Assembly (NCBI GenBank): GCA_030622515.1
Contig: JAUXGB010000004.1
Location: 1 to 33,295, forward strand
DNA length: 33,295 nucleotides
Origin: Candidatus Altarchaeota archaeon
GTDB taxonomy: Archaea > SpSt-1190 > DYHY01
Reading direction: 5' to 3'
In this document: positions 3,682 to 31,320 of the stretch, piece after piece
Position numbering within the stretch: the first letter of the stretch is position 1
Layout: every line of letters begins with the position of its first letter
Position numbers and translations under genes: made by a program
The notes under the pieces: model-generated
What the model saw: only the letters and a program-made list of their open reading frames with translations
Database searches by the model: none
Told to the model about the DNA's origin: nothing

Positions 3682-4875
3682 ATGAACCCCGTTCTCGTCT
3701 GGCTGCTGTTTGTCATCGCTTTCCTCTACTGGAAAAGGAAGAACATAGAGAGGCACGGCATCATCTTTATGCTTAAGAACAAGGGGCTTGCCACCAAACT
3801 TTACAACTTCTCCAGCAGGCACCTGAAACGCATCAACCCCCTCTTCGACCTGGGGGTAATTGTAGGATTCATCGGCATGTTTTACGCGATTAAACTCCTC
3901 TTTGAGGGGGCAGTCGACATCTTCAAGGGCTTTCTCTTTGGTGAAGCGACGACAGCGCACGTCTCAGTCATTATCCCCGGTGTTGCTGTGCCGGGTTCGC
4001 CCCTTTTCCTCCCCCTCCTTGAAGGCATAATCGCCATCGCCGTCCTTGCAATTGTCCACGAGTTTTCCCACGCAATAGCAGCGTCGATTCAAGGCATGAA
4101 ACCAAAGGCAGTCGCCCTTGTCCTTCTTGCATTCATCCCTGCCGCAGGGGTTGAGCTTGACGAGAAAAAGGTGTCCCACCTCCGCCCAAGGGCGAGGCTG
4201 AGGATTTTTGCCGCAGGTTCCTTTGCAAACTTCCTGACAGCAGGGACCTTTATGATGCTCGCCGTCGTCCTTACCCTCCTCTTTGTAACCCCGACCGGCA
4301 TCGAGGTGCTTCGGGTTGAGAACGGCACAGCAGCCGATGGCATCCTGACCAACGGCACTGTTATCACAGCTATCAACGGAGTGCAGGCAATCGACTCAAA
4401 AGAGCTTGTAATGTCGACAACCGGCTTTTTCAACCCTGTGACAACAATCTCATTCTCAAGGATAGCATCCCAGCTCAGCCCTGGCGACAAGGTCATCCTC
4501 GAGACCTCGGAGGGGGAGGTCGAAGTGACCCTCGGCGCTTTCCCAGACAACCCAACCCGCGGCAGGATAGGCATAATTACCTCCCCAAAGATTGAGTTTG
4601 TTGATGTTGGCGACTGGCTGCCTTGGCTGCTTGGCTTAATTCACTGGATTATCATTCTCAACCTTGGTGTCGGCCTGATCAACCTGCTTCCGGCGCCGCT
4701 GTTCGACGGGGGAAGGATGGCACAGGACCTGATAAGCGTGGTTTTCCCCAAGGGGGCAGCAACAGCCACCAGAGCACTCTTCGCTTTTGCCCTCACCCTC
4801 CTGGTTGTCAACCTTCTGCCAACACTAATCGCGATAGTCACTGGCTTGATTTCGGCAATTGTCGGTATGATTTAG
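3682..4875 (+). CDS. M50 family site-2 protease with PDZ-like insert
   Basis: HEFSH zinc motif in a TM segment, NLLPAPLFDGGR second motif, multiple hydrophobic helices, PDZ-like region between them. Confidence 0.88.
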   Translation: MNPVLVWLLFVIAFLYWKRKNIERHGIIFMLKNKGLATKLYNFSSRHLKRINPLFDLGVIVGFIGMFYAIKLLFEGAVDIFKGFLFGEATTAHVSVIIPGVAVPGSPLFLPLLEGIIAIAVLAIVHEFSHAIAASIQGMKPKAVALVLLAFIPAAGVELDEKKVSHLRPRARLRIFAAGSFANFLTAGTFMMLAVVLTLLFVTPTGIEVLRVENGTAADGILTNGTVITAINGVQAIDSKELVMSTTGFFNPVTTISFSRIASQLSPGDKVILETSEGEVEVTLGAFPDNPTRGRIGIITSPKIEFVDVGDWLPWLLGLIHWIIILNLGVGLINLLPAPLFDGGRMAQDLISVVFPKGAATATRALFAFALTLLVVNLLPTLIAIVTGLISAIVGMI

Positions 4876-12207: not shown

Positions 12208-13299
12208 ATGGACATTGAAACCAAGCTTGACCTAATCACCTCAGCTCCAATAGAGGAAGTCATAACCCGAGACGAGCTAAAGCACATTCTTGAGACAAAC
12301 AACAGCCCAAGGGCTTACGACGGTTTCGAGCCTTCCGGCATCCTCCACATCGGCTCCGGTCTCATGAGAGCCATAAAAATCAAGGAGCTTCAGGAAGCCG
12401 GCATCCACTTTACCCTCTGGTTGGCTGACTGGCACGCCTGGCTAAACAACAAGCTCGGCGGCGACCTTGAATCAATGAGAAAAGTCGGCGAATACTTTAT
12501 TGAAGGCTGGAAAGCATTCGGCCTTGACACCTCCAAGCTGGAAATCCAGTGGGTATCCGACGCTGTCGAGGACCCGGGCTACTGGAAGCTTGTCATGCAG
12601 GTTGCAAAAGCCACCACCCTCAACCGCGCAAAAAGATGCCTCTCCATCATGGGCCGCAAGGAAGCGGAACTGAAGCAAACAGCCCAGCTCTTCTACCCCT
12701 GCATGCAGGTGGCTGACATCTTCTATCTCGACATAGACATCTGCCAGTTAGGAATGGACCAGAGACGCGCCAACATGCTTGCACGCGAGCTTGCACCGAA
12801 GCTTGGCCTAAAGAAGCCAGTAGCAGTCCACCACCACATGCTTGCAGGCCTCCAAAGCCCAAGCGCCATGGGCAGCGAGTTTGACGACGACTCGAAAGTT
12901 TCAAGCGAAATCTCAAACAAAATGTCAAAAAGCAAGCCAGACAGCTCCATCTACATCCACGACTCGCCGCAGGAGATTGAAAGAAAAATCAAGAAAGCCT
13001 TCTGCGAACCAAAGAACACCAAGTTTAACCCAATGCTTGAATATGCAAAATACATAATCTTCAAGTCCCAGAAAGATTTCACTATCGAACGGCCAAAGAA
13101 GTTTGGCGGGCCAGTTGCCTATTCCCAATTCAAGGACCTCGAGCAGGACTTTGCAGCAGGCAAGCTTCACCCGCAGGACCTAAAGGCAGGAATCGCAAGG
13201 GACGTGACCAAACTACTGGAGCCTGCCCGCAAGCACTTTGCCTCTGGCGAACCCAAGCGCCTCTACGACTTTGTCAAAGGCCTTCAGGTGACACGCTAG
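12208..13299 (+). CDS. tyrS: Tyrosyl-tRNA synthetase (archaeal type)
   Basis: GFEPSGILHIGSGLMRAIK class I signature, KMSKSKPDSSIYIHD (KMSKS), archaeal TyrRS length. Confidence 0.93.
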   Translation: MDIETKLDLITSAPIEEVITRDELKHILETNNSPRAYDGFEPSGILHIGSGLMRAIKIKELQEAGIHFTLWLADWHAWLNNKLGGDLESMRKVGEYFIEGWKAFGLDTSKLEIQWVSDAVEDPGYWKLVMQVAKATTLNRAKRCLSIMGRKEAELKQTAQLFYPCMQVADIFYLDIDICQLGMDQRRANMLARELAPKLGLKKPVAVHHHMLAGLQSPSAMGSEFDDDSKVSSEISNKMSKSKPDSSIYIHDSPQEIERKIKKAFCEPKNTKFNPMLEYAKYIIFKSQKDFTIERPKKFGGPVAYSQFKDLEQDFAAGKLHPQDLKAGIARDVTKLLEPARKHFASGEPKRLYDFVKGLQVTR

Positions 13300-13772
13300 G
13301 CCCTTTCGCACAGCTCGTGAATGTGCTTGAAAAAATATTTTGCATTCTCAACGCTTTCTTTTGCAGGTTCAACATTTGCCTGTGGCAGTGTCCTGTATGT
13401 AAACTTGCCTCTCTTTTTCTTTTCCTTCCAGAATATCCTCAGCAGGACTTCCGCACTTGCAAGCGCCTTACTGTAAATCTTAAGCAGCTCAACATCCACT
13501 TCGCCGCTGTCGACAAGCCTTCCGAAGGTCTCGTAAGATTTCCTGTGCTCCCCCGGCGGCCCTGTCCTTATGCCTTTTGTAAGCAGGTAGGCCTTTGCCG
13601 AATAGAAAACCGCATAATAGCAGTGGGAAATTACCGAGCTGTAATATGTCTCAGGCTCTTTTATCTCAAATACTTCCTTCTGGATTTCCAGGCTTTCACT
13701 TATCCTAAATATTATGCCGGCCAGCTTGATTTCATTTTCTGCCCTCTGAGCAAGGTACAAACCTGAATCCAT
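13296..13772 (-). CDS. HEPN-domain protein (toxin of MNT-HEPN pair 1)
   Basis: SHCYYAVFYSAKAYLLTKGIRTGPPGEH (R-x6-H), all-helical; directly downstream of and overlapping an MNT nucleotidyltransferase gene. Confidence 0.82.
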   Translation of the reverse strand: MDSGLYLAQRAENEIKLAGIIFRISESLEIQKEVFEIKEPETYYSSVISHCYYAVFYSAKAYLLTKGIRTGPPGEHRKSYETFGRLVDSGEVDVELLKIYSKALASAEVLLRIFWKEKKKRGKFTYRTLPQANVEPAKESVENAKYFFKHIHELCERA

Positions 13773-14373
13773 TTCTTATCCCCTCATCCAAGATTGAATA
13801 GAATATGGCCGGATTGTGTATTGCCAGATGTCTTCTTGCAATTTCTTTTCCAACGTTCCCCCGCCTGTCCTTAAGCATCTTAAGCATCTCGTCCCGCGTA
13901 AACACATGGGCATCTAGTCGAATTATGCATTTCAGCTCCGCCGAGTTCATCGCCGCCTTGCAGTTTTTCTTCTCCTTTCCAGAATTCACAAACAAAGCGA
14001 CATCCAAATCAGAGTCACCTTTCTGATTTCCCTCAGCATAAGAACCGAAAACTACCATAGACACGAAACTAATGTCTGCAATCTCCTCTATTACTCTTTT
14101 CAGGCACTTCCTTGCCACTGTTGGAAGCATTTCCCCTACAAGAATCCCGAAGTAGGCAAGCACACTTGCGTTCCCCAGATTGGTCCTGTAGAGAATAATG
14201 TTGCCTACCTTCCTCTTTCGCACAAGCCCTTCAGCAAGAAATCTAGATATTGCCCTCTGGACGACCGAGTTTGATTTCTCCCCTACATATCCCTTTATCT
14301 CCCCGTACGTCATCTCCCTGTACGGCCTCATAAGAAAGGCCCCAAAAATCCTTGTTTGTTTTGGCGTCAGCAT
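13732..14373 (-). CDS. wHTH-MNT nucleotidyltransferase (antitoxin of pair 1)
   Basis: N-terminal winged-helix region, then VVFGSYAEGNQKGDSDLDVALFV (GSxxxGxxxxSDxD). Confidence 0.87.
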   Translation of the reverse strand: MLTPKQTRIFGAFLMRPYREMTYGEIKGYVGEKSNSVVQRAISRFLAEGLVRKRKVGNIILYRTNLGNASVLAYFGILVGEMLPTVARKCLKRVIEEIADISFVSMVVFGSYAEGNQKGDSDLDVALFVNSGKEKKNCKAAMNSAELKCIIRLDAHVFTRDEMLKMLKDRRGNVGKEIARRHLAIHNPAIFYSILDEGIRNGFRFVPCSEGRK

Positions 14374-14489: not shown

Positions 14490-14915
14490 ATGAGCTTGAA
14501 GACCGCCATAGGCTGCAGGGGGGTTATCATCCACGAAGAAAAGGTTCTCCTGACAAACGACCCCACGAAGAAAAGGGGCTGGGTTTTTCCCGGGGGAAAA
14601 ATGAAGGACGGCGAGCTGCCAGAGGCCTGCGTGAAGCGGGAGGTCAAGGAAGAAACCGGCATTGATGTGGACATTGGCGAGATTTTCCACACCCGCCTCT
14701 TCGACGAAAGAAACACCCCGACCTACAAGGCCGACTGGTTTCTGATGCTCTACTACATGGCAACCCCGAAGAGTCTCGAACTCAAGCCGGAGGAAGGAGA
14801 AGAAGCTGGATGGTTCACCCTCGAACAGGTCAAGCAGCTGAAGAAAACCTCAATCGTCCTCAAGACTGTCCTCCTCAAAGCAGGCTTCTGGAAAGAAGTC
14901 CAGACTACACTTTAG
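14490..14915 (+). CDS. NUDIX hydrolase
   Basis: Nudix box GKMKDGELPEACVKREVKEETGI; SD AGGTGA-CAAA-ATG. Confidence 0.92.
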   Translation: MSLKTAIGCRGVIIHEEKVLLTNDPTKKRGWVFPGGKMKDGELPEACVKREVKEETGIDVDIGEIFHTRLFDERNTPTYKADWFLMLYYMATPKSLELKPEEGEEAGWFTLEQVKQLKKTSIVLKTVLLKAGFWKEVQTTL

Positions 14916-15939
14916 ACTTCTTCCTGTCGCTCAAAACAGCCTCGTTGATTTTTTCCACATCAGCTACCTGATAGAACTGCCCCTCACCTATCAAAGCAAT
15001 AGCCCGACCGTTCTTCTCCCCATCCTTGTCAACACCAATCCCAATAACTGAAACGCTGACCTCAGCCTCCTTGCAGGCGTAGGCCTCCTCAAGCGCAGCT
15101 TCAAGCGGCTTCTTTCCCTCTGTCGGTATCCCGTCTGTAATCAGGATGATGTGCTTCCTGTTTTTCAAGCCAGACGAAAGCAGCAGGTTCCGCGCCTCTC
15201 TCAACCCAAGACCCAAATCAGTGGTTCCTGTCGGCGCCAGAGAGGCAACATTTTTCGAGAAGGAAAACAGGCTTTCCCCAAAGGAAACAACCCTGTGGCT
15301 CTTCTTGTTGAACGACAAAACACTTGTCCGGTCGCCTTCGTGAAGGGAGACAAAAGCCAGTCCAATGGCCGCCCTCTTACAAGCATCAATCTTCTTTCCC
15401 CTCATGCTTCCAGAAGAGTCAAGCGCAAAGACAAAGTCCACCGAGGTGTTCTTTCCTTTCTCCCAAGCAACCAAGTCACAGGCTTCAACAGAAGAGTGCC
15501 CCCTGCGCACAGCTTTTGCAACACTCTTTCTTGGCGAGATAGACCTGTAGCTCATCCCTTTCTCAAACGGCTTGGGTTCGATAGGAAAAACACTGCCCCC
15601 CTTCTCATGAGCCCGATGCTCCCCATAGCCAAGCTTGCCTAGCACGCGAAGCTCGTCATCAACCAAATCAAATGCAATAACATCAAGAGCAGAATCCGTC
15701 AGCCCGTCCCCATCAATCAACCCATCGTCCCTCATGCTCTTCAGCGTTGAATCAATAGACTGCTCAACCATCCTGATGGAGTCTGGCCTGTTTTTCAACT
15801 CGCCGAGCTGAACCAGCCTCATCCCAGTCAGCCCCTCAAGCAGCTCCGGGTCGAAAGAGGCTATCGCCTCCTTGTAATTCTCAACAATCTTCTTTGCAAA
15901 AAACTTGGCAGAGACTCCTTTCGTCCCCCTGTTCGCCAT
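14905..15939 (-). CDS. VWA-domain protein (ChlD/BchD-like C-terminal part)
   Basis: MIDAS motif DSSGSMRGKKIDACKRAAIGLAF, TDLGLGLREA, LITDGIPTEG; open frame continues upstream to 16041 without a canonical start codon. Confidence 0.88.
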   Translation of the reverse strand: MANRGTKGVSAKFFAKKIVENYKEAIASFDPELLEGLTGMRLVQLGELKNRPDSIRMVEQSIDSTLKSMRDDGLIDGDGLTDSALDVIAFDLVDDELRVLGKLGYGEHRAHEKGGSVFPIEPKPFEKGMSYRSISPRKSVAKAVRRGHSSVEACDLVAWEKGKNTSVDFVFALDSSGSMRGKKIDACKRAAIGLAFVSLHEGDRTSVLSFNKKSHRVVSFGESLFSFSKNVASLAPTGTTDLGLGLREARNLLLSSGLKNRKHIILITDGIPTEGKKPLEAALEEAYACKEAEVSVSVIGIGVDKDGEKNGRAIALIGEGQFYQVADVEKINEAVLSDRKKSKV

Positions 15940-16022
15940 CGAGCGAAGCAGGCTCTTCTTCCTGTTGTCAACCTTCTCCCCGGGCTTCTCTCCTTTCTTT
16001 TCCTTGACCCTTTCCTCAATTT

Positions 16023-16928
16023 CTAATTTTTTTTTACTATCTCACTTTTCTTGAGAATCTCACGAACGATTTCCTCAGCACTGGTCGCATACCGCGCCTT
16101 AGGGCTCAGCTTCATCCTGTGGGCAAGAACGGAAACGGCAACATCATACAAATCATCAAGGGCGGCTTCCTGCCTTCCGTGAAGGGTAGCATTAGTCTGT
16201 ACCCTCTCATAGAGACCAATCGATGCCCTGACTCCGGCAGGCCTCTCAATCCTCTCATCGTTCCTTGTCGCCCGCACAATCTCGACAATCTTGCCAAGAA
16301 GTTCACCTGAAACACTGACGCCAAGCTTCTTTCCTTTCTCAACAACAATTCCCCGCTCAGTCTTTACATCCTCAGGATATTCCATCTCAACAATGTCAAA
16401 CCTGTCCAGAAGAACCTCGCTCAGCCTCTCCGTTCCGACATATTCCGTCGGGTTCATTGTAGCGATGAAGACGAAGTTTGCAGGATAGTCAATATCAAAC
16501 CCGCCAATAGTTGCAACCTTTTCCTCAATGACCTGCAATAAAGCGTTCTGGAGACGCTCCGCACACCTGTTCAATTCGTCAAAGAAGACAACCCCGCCGT
16601 CAGCCTTCAGAAGCTTCCCGGGCGAGAAAGCCTCCTTCGAGTCAGGACCATACTTCAGCGCCTTGACCGGGTCAATGTCCCCCAACAGGTGCTCGACCTG
16701 CAGGTCTGGCGACCCCTGAAGTCTCATAAACTTCTTCCCTGGAAGCAATTTTGCAACCGATTTTGCCAAAGTGGTCTTCCCAACCCCGGGAAAACCGACA
16801 ATAATGACATTCCGTCCGGCAAGCAGGGCAGACGCCATCTGCCTTTTGGCATTCTCCTGCCCAATTATCTCTGGAAACAGCTCTTCACCCTTGGAAATCT
16901 TCCCCTTGAGTATCCCAGAGAGGTCCAT
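16023..16928 (-). CDS. MoxR/ChlI-like AAA+ ATPase (magnesium-chelatase-type)
   Basis: Walker A GFPGVGKTTL, Walker B GGVVFFDELNR, sensor ATMNPTEYVGTE, RPAGVRASIGLYERVQ; ends GTA AAA AAA AAT TAG. Confidence 0.92.
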   Translation of the reverse strand: MDLSGILKGKISKGEELFPEIIGQENAKRQMASALLAGRNVIIVGFPGVGKTTLAKSVAKLLPGKKFMRLQGSPDLQVEHLLGDIDPVKALKYGPDSKEAFSPGKLLKADGGVVFFDELNRCAERLQNALLQVIEEKVATIGGFDIDYPANFVFIATMNPTEYVGTERLSEVLLDRFDIVEMEYPEDVKTERGIVVEKGKKLGVSVSGELLGKIVEIVRATRNDERIERPAGVRASIGLYERVQTNATLHGRQEAALDDLYDVAVSVLAHRMKLSPKARYATSAEEIVREILKKSEIVKKN

Positions 16929-18516: not shown

Positions 18517-18566
18517 ACGATAAATTTATATACCCGTTTCTACGATAATACTATCGTGAAATCGTG
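18517..18566 (+). promoter_or_regulatory. TATA box and palindromic operator upstream of MNT pair 2
   Basis: TATA AAATTTATATA 18522-18532; inverted repeat ACGATA-ATAC-TATCGT 18542-18557; extra half sites ACGATAA 18517-18523 and ATCGTG 18561-18566. Confidence 0.7.
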
Positions 18567-19195
18567 TGGTTAAGGTAGAGTTTATTGACAAGATAATCGG
18601 GCAGTTTTTGCCGGAACTGAAGCAGAAATTCACTATAAGGAGGATTTCATTGCTTACCAAACTGTCTTATGATGCCACTTACAGGCATGTCCACTACCTT
18701 ATGAAGGAGGGTGCTCTTAAGGAAGAGAAGGTCGGCGCCTATTCCTATGTCAGCATCAACTTTGAGAGCGATTTCGCAAGAAAAATAATTGAAAGAATAA
18801 GTCTGAATAAAACCAGAAAGTTCTTAAAAAAAGATGTTGTGACAAAAAAACTGCTAGGGGAGCTTGTGGAGGAACTGAAAAAGGCCATTCCGAACGAGCT
18901 TCTTTCCCTTGTTCTTTACGGAAGCTACGCAAAAGGAACCCAAACAGAACACAGCGATATAGATGTCCTTGTCGTATCGTCAACCTTCAATGTCAGGGGG
19001 AGGGTGGAACAGGTATGCGGTGGTGTCGAAAAGAGATACGGAAAAGACATCTCCCCCCTGATTACAACGGCCGTCGAATTGAAAAAGATGATTCAATCAA
19101 AAAAACCAACAGTTGCCCAGGAAATACTGCTCGATGCCGTCGTCCTTTTCGGATACGAGAAATATTACTCAATTGCGTTCGAGGCGGTTAAATGA
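18566..19195 (+). CDS. wHTH-MNT nucleotidyltransferase (antitoxin of pair 2)
   Basis: N-terminal HTH (TIRRISLLTKLSYDATYRHVHYLMKEGALKEEKVG), LVLYGSYAKGTQTEHSDIDVLVVS NTase motif; GTG start. Confidence 0.87.
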   Translation: MVKVEFIDKIIGQFLPELKQKFTIRRISLLTKLSYDATYRHVHYLMKEGALKEEKVGAYSYVSINFESDFARKIIERISLNKTRKFLKKDVVTKKLLGELVEELKKAIPNELLSLVLYGSYAKGTQTEHSDIDVLVVSSTFNVRGRVEQVCGGVEKRYGKDISPLITTAVELKKMIQSKKPTVAQEILLDAVVLFGYEKYYSIAFEAVK

Positions 19196-19737
19196 TTAAA
19201 CATAAACTGAAAAAATTTGAAGCAAAGGGATTGTGCGGAAAAAAGCCGTTTATAAGAAGACTTGTCCCTCATTTCATGGAAAAAGCAAGGCATAACATCC
19301 TGTTGTGCAATGCTGTTTGGGATTTAAGCAACACCGAAGAGGCGAAAAAGATACTGAAACTTCCAGAAGACTTTTCAGCATTTGACTGGGTCATGATAAC
19401 CGCCTACTATTCAATGTACCATTCTGCTTTAGCGGCCTTGGCATCAGTCGGCTACAAAAGTGATAATCACACGGCCACAATAATCGCCCTTGAGGTTCAC
19501 TTTGTGAGGACAAACCTTCTGGAAAGGGAATTTCTTGATAAATTGAAACGGGCAAGGGGGCTTGAAGAGACATACATCCACAAGTTAAGGCGTGCGAGAC
19601 GGCAAAGAGAAACCGCACAGTATAGGGTTACAGAAGAAACAGGAAAGGAAGCGGCAAGGGCGCTACTAAAAGACGCAGGACATTTTGTTAACAGGATGGG
19701 AAGACTGGTCGATGAATTGAATAAGACAGCTAGGTGA
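19192..19737 (+). CDS. HEPN-domain protein (toxin of pair 2)
   Basis: DWVMITAYYSMYHSALAALASVGYKSDNHTATI HEPN-type helix; 4-nt ATGA overlap with the MNT gene. Confidence 0.8.
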   Translation: MIKHKLKKFEAKGLCGKKPFIRRLVPHFMEKARHNILLCNAVWDLSNTEEAKKILKLPEDFSAFDWVMITAYYSMYHSALAALASVGYKSDNHTATIIALEVHFVRTNLLEREFLDKLKRARGLEETYIHKLRRARRQRETAQYRVTEETGKEAARALLKDAGHFVNRMGRLVDELNKTAR

Positions 19738-29619: not shown

Positions 29620-31320
29620 ATGAAAGAAAAATTGGCAGTACTGTTTGCCATTTTCTCCCTCCTCCTTGTGCCAATGTCGGCGCAGGAACTGGGGGAAACA
29701 GGCGGCAGCGAAACGGTGGAAGCAGTTATTCTTGCAACCACCATCAACTATCCCGACGCTCTTGTCGCAGGGGCCGCTTAGGGAAAAACAGGTTATCCGG
29801 TTCTGTTCACAGAGCCGTCAGAGCTTTCAAATGAAACTTTGGAATCTCTTGAAGAGCTCTCTCCGGAAACCGTGTACATCTTTGGAGGACCGGTTGTAAT
29901 AGAGGACGCAGTGGAGGACCAGCTTTCCGAACTCAACTACACCACAGTAAGGCTGTGGGGTGAGACTAGGATAGGGACCTCGACTGAAGTTGCAAAATAC
30001 TTCTGGACGGAAGGCGCCGACTTTGTCGTTCTTGTGGCAGACAACCTTGAGCTTCCCGAAGACGGAAGATTTACCGACGTTGCCGAGGCAGCAGCCTTTG
30101 CAGCAGCCCACAAGGTCCCGGTAATCATTTCCCTGACCGACACCCTGCCGCAGGATGTTGAAGAGACCCTTGGGGTTCTAAACGCCGAAACTGTCCGGCT
30201 TGTCGGCCAGTTCGAGGACGCCGTCAGGACAGCCCTTGAAGCTCTTGGGCTTGAAGTCAGGCCAATCAGCAGGGAAGAGATTCAGGAAGAAATTGCAGAA
30301 CGCTCGGACAAGAGCATGATTGTCCTTGTCGCAGCATCTGCAAAGAACTTTACCAACGTACTTTACTCCGCGGCAGGCGAGCCCGGAAGGGCCTCCTACA
30401 TAGTTTCCAGCGAGGATGAAATCTCCGACGCTGTTGCCTATGTCAAGGACAACGGCCCGTTCGACAGGATTAAAGTCGTCGGCCAGCCTGAACTAAGGGC
30501 AAAGATTGCAGCAGCCCTCGACGCAGAAGGAATAGAATACGATGCCTCAGGAAATTCCCTTGCGGCTCACGCAAAGCAGCTGGCCAACCAGCAGCGCGAG
30601 AAGTTCGCCAGAAGGATAAGGGAGTTCAAGGCCAATCAGGAGAGGCTTAAGGAAAAGATACAGGCCGGAGCAGACCGGCTTATCGAGTCTGCAACAGCTT
30701 CCATTGAGCGTGCCAACGACGCACTTGCGCGGGCAAAGGAGCTGACCGAGTCCCTGAACGAAACCTACGACTTCTCCGCACAGGACGCAGCAATGAGTTC
30801 CGCGGAAACCCTGCTTGCTGAAGCTGAGGTTGACCATGAAGCCGGCCGCTACATAATGGCTTCAAGAAACGCAGCCCTTGCAAAGAACAAGGCCCACTGG
30901 GTAATCTACTCCCTAAGGCCTGTGCTTGGTTCCGAGTTTGACGCCTTTGTCGCAGAGGAAACCCAGAACATGAACCAGCTCAGGGCGCGTGCAGAGCAGC
31001 TTCTCCAGAGAGCAAACCAGTTCAAGGCGCAAAACCCGAGGGTAAATGCCTTTGTCGAGACGACAAAGACCAAAATACGGCAGGCGCTGGCCGACAAGGA
31101 GTATGGAAAGGCCTTGGGAATAGCAAAGCAGGCTGAGGAGATTGCAAGGAAAGAAATCGCCAAGAGGCGCGGAGAAAGAGTCTTCGAGCAGCCGGAAGGA
31201 TTCAGAGTGAGGGCGACAGCAATAACAATTGCGCGCGAGCGGCTTCTCCAGCAGGAACGGCTCGGAGTAAACGCAACCCTCCCGATTGACCGGGTCCTTG
31301 ACAGGATAAGGAACAGGTAA
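29620..31320 (+). CDS. Secreted CWB2-domain surface protein with coiled-coil C-terminus, interrupted by in-frame TAG at 29779-29781
   Basis: MKEKLAVLFAIFSLLLVPMSAQ signal peptide; VILATTINYPDALVAGAA[TAG]GKTGYPVLFTEPSELSN...VYIFGGPVVIEDAVEDQL...RLWGETRIGTSTEVA matches the cell-wall-binding repeat 2 pattern across the stop; frame is continuous. Confidence 0.85.

Follow-up and report, generated by a model that had tools for sequence, protein, structure and literature searches.

The frameshifted Mg/Co-chelatase gene, fs-chlD, is among the closest described counterparts of the locus presented here, and is reportedly also the subject of a 2020 study by Antonov. The cluster of chelatase genes with a frameshift was found in Methanocaldococcus, Methanococcus, and bacteria (Antonov et al. 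2013, PMC3711429), and the chlD cassettes placed in E. coli supported a -1 shift of 10% with an A7 run, 40% with A9, and 63% with A11 (PMC3711429). The +1 shift is rarer than the -1 shift among the chlD cases (Kuznetsov et al. 2022, PMC9227772). In the archaea, a 2021 review of recoding lists the -1 shift of the Sulfolobus fucA1 gene, which occurs on the heptamer A_AAA_AAT, a suggested -1 shift in the methanogen chelatase, and +1 frameshifting only in a haloarchaeal virus (PMC8211752). Among the open-access papers that were searched, none was found to describe +1 frameshifting of a cellular gene in archaea. The bacterial prfB site has a characteristic layout, in which a Shine-Dalgarno (SD) sequence is followed by three nucleotides and by CTT TGA C (PMC12421855), and the codons CTT, CCC, CCG, and GCG are known from other systems to be prone to +1 slippage when they precede a stop or a slow codon (PMC5009743).

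The ATPase and VWA frames in the window

The stretch of DNA analyzed here (the window, 33,295 nucleotides of a contig of a Candidatus Altarchaeota archaeon) contains, on the minus strand, a 301-aa ORF of the ChlI/MoxR type (16023-16928), which matches PF07726, PF07728, and PF17863 above the cut-off. These matches (Pfam AAA_3 / AAA_5 plus AAA_lid_2) place the product among the MoxR-like AAA+ ATPases, and its motifs include a Walker A (GFPGVGKTT), a Walker B (VVFFDELNR), a sensor-1 (ATMNP), an Arg-finger-like LLDRFD, and the AAA_lid_2. The VWA frame, on the same strand, is open over positions 14905-16041, with its stop at 14905, and comprises 373 aa, linker included, counted from Leu 302 of the predicted fusion. 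It matches PF00092 (E 1.8e-17) with an intact MIDAS (DSSGS / TGTT / TDG), and active motifs are retained in both halves (Walker A/B in the ATPase and MIDAS in the VWA). Two HEPN and nucleotidyltransferase (MNT) pairs of the toxin-antitoxin type flank the ATPase-VWA gene, at 13296-14373 (minus strand) and 18566-19737 (plus strand), and a protein with a CWB2 (cell-wall-binding 2) domain is encoded at 29839-31320 (plus strand) of this archaeal genome.

The 3' end of the ATPase reads ...AGT GAG ATA GTA AAA AAA AAT TAG on the minus strand. The original prediction placed an A9 run beside the ATPase stop, with the VWA frame open in -1 from position 16041, and this arrangement was borne out. The run, at 16027-16035 and read in the 0 frame as GTA AAA AAA AAT, adjoins the TAG stop (16023-16025), and its region holds two slippery heptamers, A_AAA_AAA (16029-16035) and A_AAA_AAT (16026-16032). 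A GTGAG that was thought to resemble a partial SD is indeed present 5 nt to the 5' side of the run (16041-16045, minus strand), at roughly the place where the +1 relatives described below have their strong SD, but it is weaker, with a match of just 4 nt. The A9 run is the only run of at least nine of any base within the window, and shuffled sequences of the same composition hold around three A9 runs against the one seen here. The rarity of the run was therefore dropped as evidence, and its position and phase alone are counted: by our own estimate from the shuffles, the chance that the lone A9 of the window would fall in the shift phase, within the last ten bases before the stop, is around 1-2 in 10,000. 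No significant stimulatory RNA structure was found downstream of the junction in the window (z -0.1 to -0.7).

Between the slippery run and the first ATG of the VWA gene lies a charged linker of 29 codons, LEIEERVKEKKGEKPGEKVDNRKKSLLRS, at 15940-16026 of the minus strand, for which the -1 (VWA) frame is the only open one. As the original prediction had it, none of these codons is an ATG, GTG, or TTG, and the VWA frame, open from 16041, has no such codon ahead of 15939. The codon score of the linker is +13.0 in the VWA frame, as opposed to -12.2 and -20.0 in the remaining frames. For comparison, 28-codon reference windows taken from real genes average +10.7 +/- 4.3 when read in the correct frame and -16.7 +/- 8.4 when read in a wrong one; the log-odds come from 32 genes of the window, and the reference windows were drawn from these training genes, which somewhat flatters their means. 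The ATG at 15939 is the sole conventional start near the beginning of the VWA frame, and was correctly described as lacking a GGTGA-type SD. Its best match is one of 3 nt at a spacing of 13, unlike several genes neighboring the locus, which do carry SDs of the GGTGA type.

The residues around this codon, SLLRS-MANRG, align with the GPLLRQ-MNNRG of an in-frame fusion (L003, in genome G001, from the same taxonomic family as the window), and the Methanopyrus-like fusions have ARVLRQ-LLNRG at the same place, with a leucine where the window has a methionine. Judged from these alignments, the ATG at 15939 is most likely an internal codon rather than an old start, because the residues that precede it align with those of the in-frame fusions, and the methionine itself is replaced by leucine in the Methanopyrus-like proteins.

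Part of the ATPase gene was also recovered in a contig binned as Thorarchaeota (L031), in which positions 4002-4549 are identical over 548 nt to 16128-16675 of the window, with no other sequence in common. This contig is probably chimeric, and it was rejected as a second copy of the junction, given that the sequence ends before it.

Junction states among the relatives

The run of A residues and its -1 phase were expected to be conserved across the homologs, and the comparison of the family gave a different result, in that most of the relatives join the two halves in +1, at another kind of site. The ATPase is joined to the VWA in +1 in 82 of the 94 distinct loci of the family (L034-L110 and others, in the Woesearchaeota and Nanoarchaeota). 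These loci come from metagenome-assembled genomes, in which single-base errors occur, but errors cannot account for a +1 frame on which 82 loci agree. Two loci initially classed as -1 (L057 and L074) proved to have the +1 arrangement at the junction, their VWA frame being disrupted downstream of it or masked.

In the layout of the +1 sites, an SD, GGTGAT or close to it, is followed by three bases, a shift codon, a stop, and a C, as in the Woesearchaeal examples AAAGGTGATTTACTTTGACAG and GGTGATTACCGGTAGC. The last codon before the stop is limited to eight codons in all 80 of the +1 loci in which it was scored (CGG in 27, CTT in 17, CCC in 13, GGG in 13, CCG in six, ACC in two, and also GCG and TTT), whereas one of these eight is found at 8% of 496 control ORF ends from the same loci. 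The stops of these 80 sites are TAG (48), TGA (27), and TAA (five), a C follows the stop in 68, and the modal spacing between the SD and the shift codon is 3 nt (47 of 80). An SD match of at least 5 nt is present in 59 of the 82 +1 loci, in comparison with 19 of the 496 controls, and the SD, codon, and C occur together in 63 of 82, as opposed to four of 496. At least 27 codon changes and 20 stop changes can be placed on the tree at this site, with the codons staying within the set, which indicates that the site has been maintained, rather than reflecting shared ancestry alone. The 25 codons past the stop have a dN/dS of 0.10 when read in the VWA frame, in contrast with 0.92 and 2.8 in the other frames, pooled over 127 overlapping, non-independent pairs.

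The genes adjoining the Woesearchaeal loci also show some regularity. In most loci, a calcineurin-like metallophosphoesterase is encoded around 0.5 kb downstream of the VWA on the same strand (its cluster is common to 49 of 73 loci), and may be a functional partner; a CCA-adding enzyme and membrane/lipid genes are shared upstream. The locus in the window is without these neighbors, and they were dropped as a clue to function.

Other junctions are found within the same family. The fusion in G001 is uninterrupted and has 746 aa, and four Methanopyrus-like genomes also encode in-frame fusions; no A run was found at the junction or in the ORF of the three fusions examined (G001, G018, and G040). 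In G003, a genome of the same class as the window, the VWA follows in -1 after an A10 run (GCA AAA AAA AAA CAA GCG TGA), although a GTG overlapping this stop might serve as a separate start. The -1 state thus rests on two members of the family, the window and G003. A fused Woesearchaeote (L102) has an A9 run at the homologous junction (TTT AAA AAA AAA GAT), and in both other frames a stop comes soon past the run, two codons later in -1 and after a few codons in +1. In a single-contig genome (L119, G087), the VWA lies in -1 after TTG GGG TAA, with no start codon; this could reflect -1 slippage at the GGGG, or else a +1 site that recently acquired an indel. The proteins differ also in an insert of around 40 aa between the Walker A and QGSPDL, which has four cysteines (CxxxC...CxxC) in G001 and G003; an insert of this length is found in 66 of 92 family loci, whereas the window and 25 other loci lack it.

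Given the sequence patterns at these junctions, the Woesearchaeota and Nanoarchaeota very likely carry a conserved programmed +1 frameshift in cellular genes, with an SD-N3-shift codon-stop-C site that would operate at UGA, UAG, and UAA. The +1 site, the -1 A run, and the in-frame fusion would interchange within one family, as if both the ATPase and the ATPase-VWA protein were kept by selection. If true, the family adds a widespread cellular case of +1 frameshifting in the uncultured DPANN archaea, and its sites form a natural series (eight shift codons, three stops, and at least 27 codon changes) for the study of which P-site codons permit +1 slippage. Automatic gene calling would cut such genes into two proteins.

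Proposed mechanism and competing explanations

What the sequence itself shows are the reading frames, the cassette, the coding nature of the linker, and a conserved +1 site; slippage in vivo and its rate are inferred, as are the assembly of a ring and a client. A single mRNA would quite probably provide both subunits of an AAA+/VWA machine, that is, the 301-aa ATPase and a predicted fusion of 674 aa (301 + 373), through a -1 slip at the A9 run. Some of the ribosomes that reach the A9-TAG would terminate, which would release the ATPase, and others would slip back one base on A_AAA_AAA or A_AAA_AAT, and read the linker into the VWA, which would yield the fusion. Most likely, a sizeable share of the ribosomes passing the run slip in this way, and the rate of slippage would set the ratio of ATPase to fusion. 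As the analogous BchI/BchD and CobS/CobT suggest, the two products probably co-assemble in one ATPase ring, of which the VWA MIDAS domain would recruit a client that is probably not a tetrapyrrole.

The production of the ATPase alone and of a fusion by a -1 shift at the A9 was the core of the original prediction, and is supported by the occurrence of the same cassette, in the same phase, in methanogen chlD, which belongs to the reporter-tested cluster (PMC3711429). The uninterrupted protein of G001 lends further support to the fusion product. The plain fusions of G001 and G018/G040, whose junctions are free of A runs, count against the two-product model, given that no close second ATPase copy was seen in these three genomes, and a separate ATPase is thus not required in every member of the family. 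The absence of a convincing structure downstream and the weakness of the SD upstream of the run in the window also count against it.

The same two products would arise if the fusion were made by RNA polymerase slippage at the A9, with A10 transcripts, which is the main rival to ribosomal slippage, and is nevertheless unlikely. Runs of nine A residues are known slippage sites for RNA polymerase. The correlation between run length and efficiency in the published cassettes (PMC3711429) fits either mechanism, but most of the relatives join at sites that contain no homopolymer, and these are explicable only by a +1 shift of the ribosome. Homopolymers are also error-prone in assembly, and the A9 may represent a true A10 (or A7) in a plain in-frame fusion, as in G001 from the same family, with the sole other copy found (the identical 548 nt of L031) stopping short of the junction. 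This error is very improbable, however, as the phase of the run and the stop right behind it match the methanogen chlD cassette, and G003 has an A run in the -1 arrangement; an A10 in a plain fusion would, in any case, be slippery too.

The reading of the locus as two separate genes, with the VWA starting at the ATG of 15939 or being coupled to the ATPase by reinitiation past the TAG, is the least probable of these explanations. The ATG is present, and many MoxR systems keep their ATPase and VWA genes apart, but the codon lacks an SD and is preceded by 29 codons that score as coding in the VWA frame, the LLRS is homologous to the fused protein, with leucine at the methionine position in the Methanopyrus-like fusions, and, in the +1 relatives, strong purifying selection acts on the linker that begins right behind the stop of the ATPase (dN/dS 0.10). 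For these relatives only, a separate VWA protein might be initiated internally, at the GTG inside the GGTGAT, given that GGTGAT/GGTGGT puts a VWA-frame GTG at -11 in most of the 80 +1 loci. This initiation is improbable, as nine of the 80 offer no candidate start codon ahead of the stop in the VWA frame, loci of the L095 type (GGCGATTACCGGTAGC) retain the shift codon and the stop with the GTG absent, and neither the restriction on the last codon nor the C behind the stop would be explained by it. The -1 slip of the ribosome in the window and the +1 slip in its relatives are the preferred readings.

Comparison with known systems

The locus resembles fs-chlD in the order of the domains (AAA+ and then VWA), in the overlapping ORFs, in the -1 phase, and in the use of an A run as the shift site, with the A9 cassette in the same phase. 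The small and medium subunits produced from a single fs-chlD gene are a parallel for the two products of the window. All 13 of the methanogen-type genes retrieved here from the true ChlD family, with their halves in two frames, are -1, and 12 of these junctions have xxA AAA AAA AAy with A9 or more (L167-L178), the other having A7. Several of the ends read VKKN* or LKKN*, as in the window.

The identity of the gene as a chelatase (ChlI/ChlD), which formed part of the original prediction, is not supported. The two proteins of the window reach 74.9 and 43.9 bits against TIGR02442, far below the curated cut-off of 779, and the family forms an ATPase-VWA clade apart from that of fs-chlD: a maximum-likelihood tree built on the ATPase domain separates the window family from the ChlD sequences, both fused and -1, as two clades (support 100/100) set apart by a very long branch. 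The family is also mostly +1, rather than -1, and CobN/ChlH (PF02514) was not found in the window genome (G000, 84% complete), G001, or G003, whereas the control genomes gave the expected matches. If the A9 cassette was gained separately in the ChlD and window clades, this would be a case of convergence; alternatively, one very old A9 site may have been retained in both.

The +1 relatives are comparable to the bacterial prfB (RF2) in the internal SD and the 3-nt spacer, with an exact CTT_TGA_C in 14 of 80 (PMC12421855), while the others have different codons or stops in the same layout. They differ in being archaeal and in not encoding a release factor, and they use TAG and TAA besides TGA, and CGG, CCC, GGG, CCG, ACC, GCG, and TTT besides CTT. 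Archaea are known to have one release factor, because of which autoregulation of the RF2 type is not expected in these relatives, unlike prfB. This suggests that an element of the prfB layout works without it.

The archaeal fucA1 of Sulfolobus shares with the window its heptamer, which is the same as the second one at the A9 (PMC8211752), but is an unrelated enzyme with a single functional product and a putative stem-loop. The arrangement of L102 appears to follow, in turn, the logic of the E. coli dnaX, with a full-length product by default and a slip that would terminate. In dnaX, an A-rich slip site gives an ATPase with and without its C-terminal domains, whereas the default in the window is the short product. 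As in the MoxR-VWA, BchI-BchD, and CobS-CobT systems, an AAA+ ring would be combined here with a VWA/MIDAS partner, which points to a two-subunit AAA+/VWA machine.
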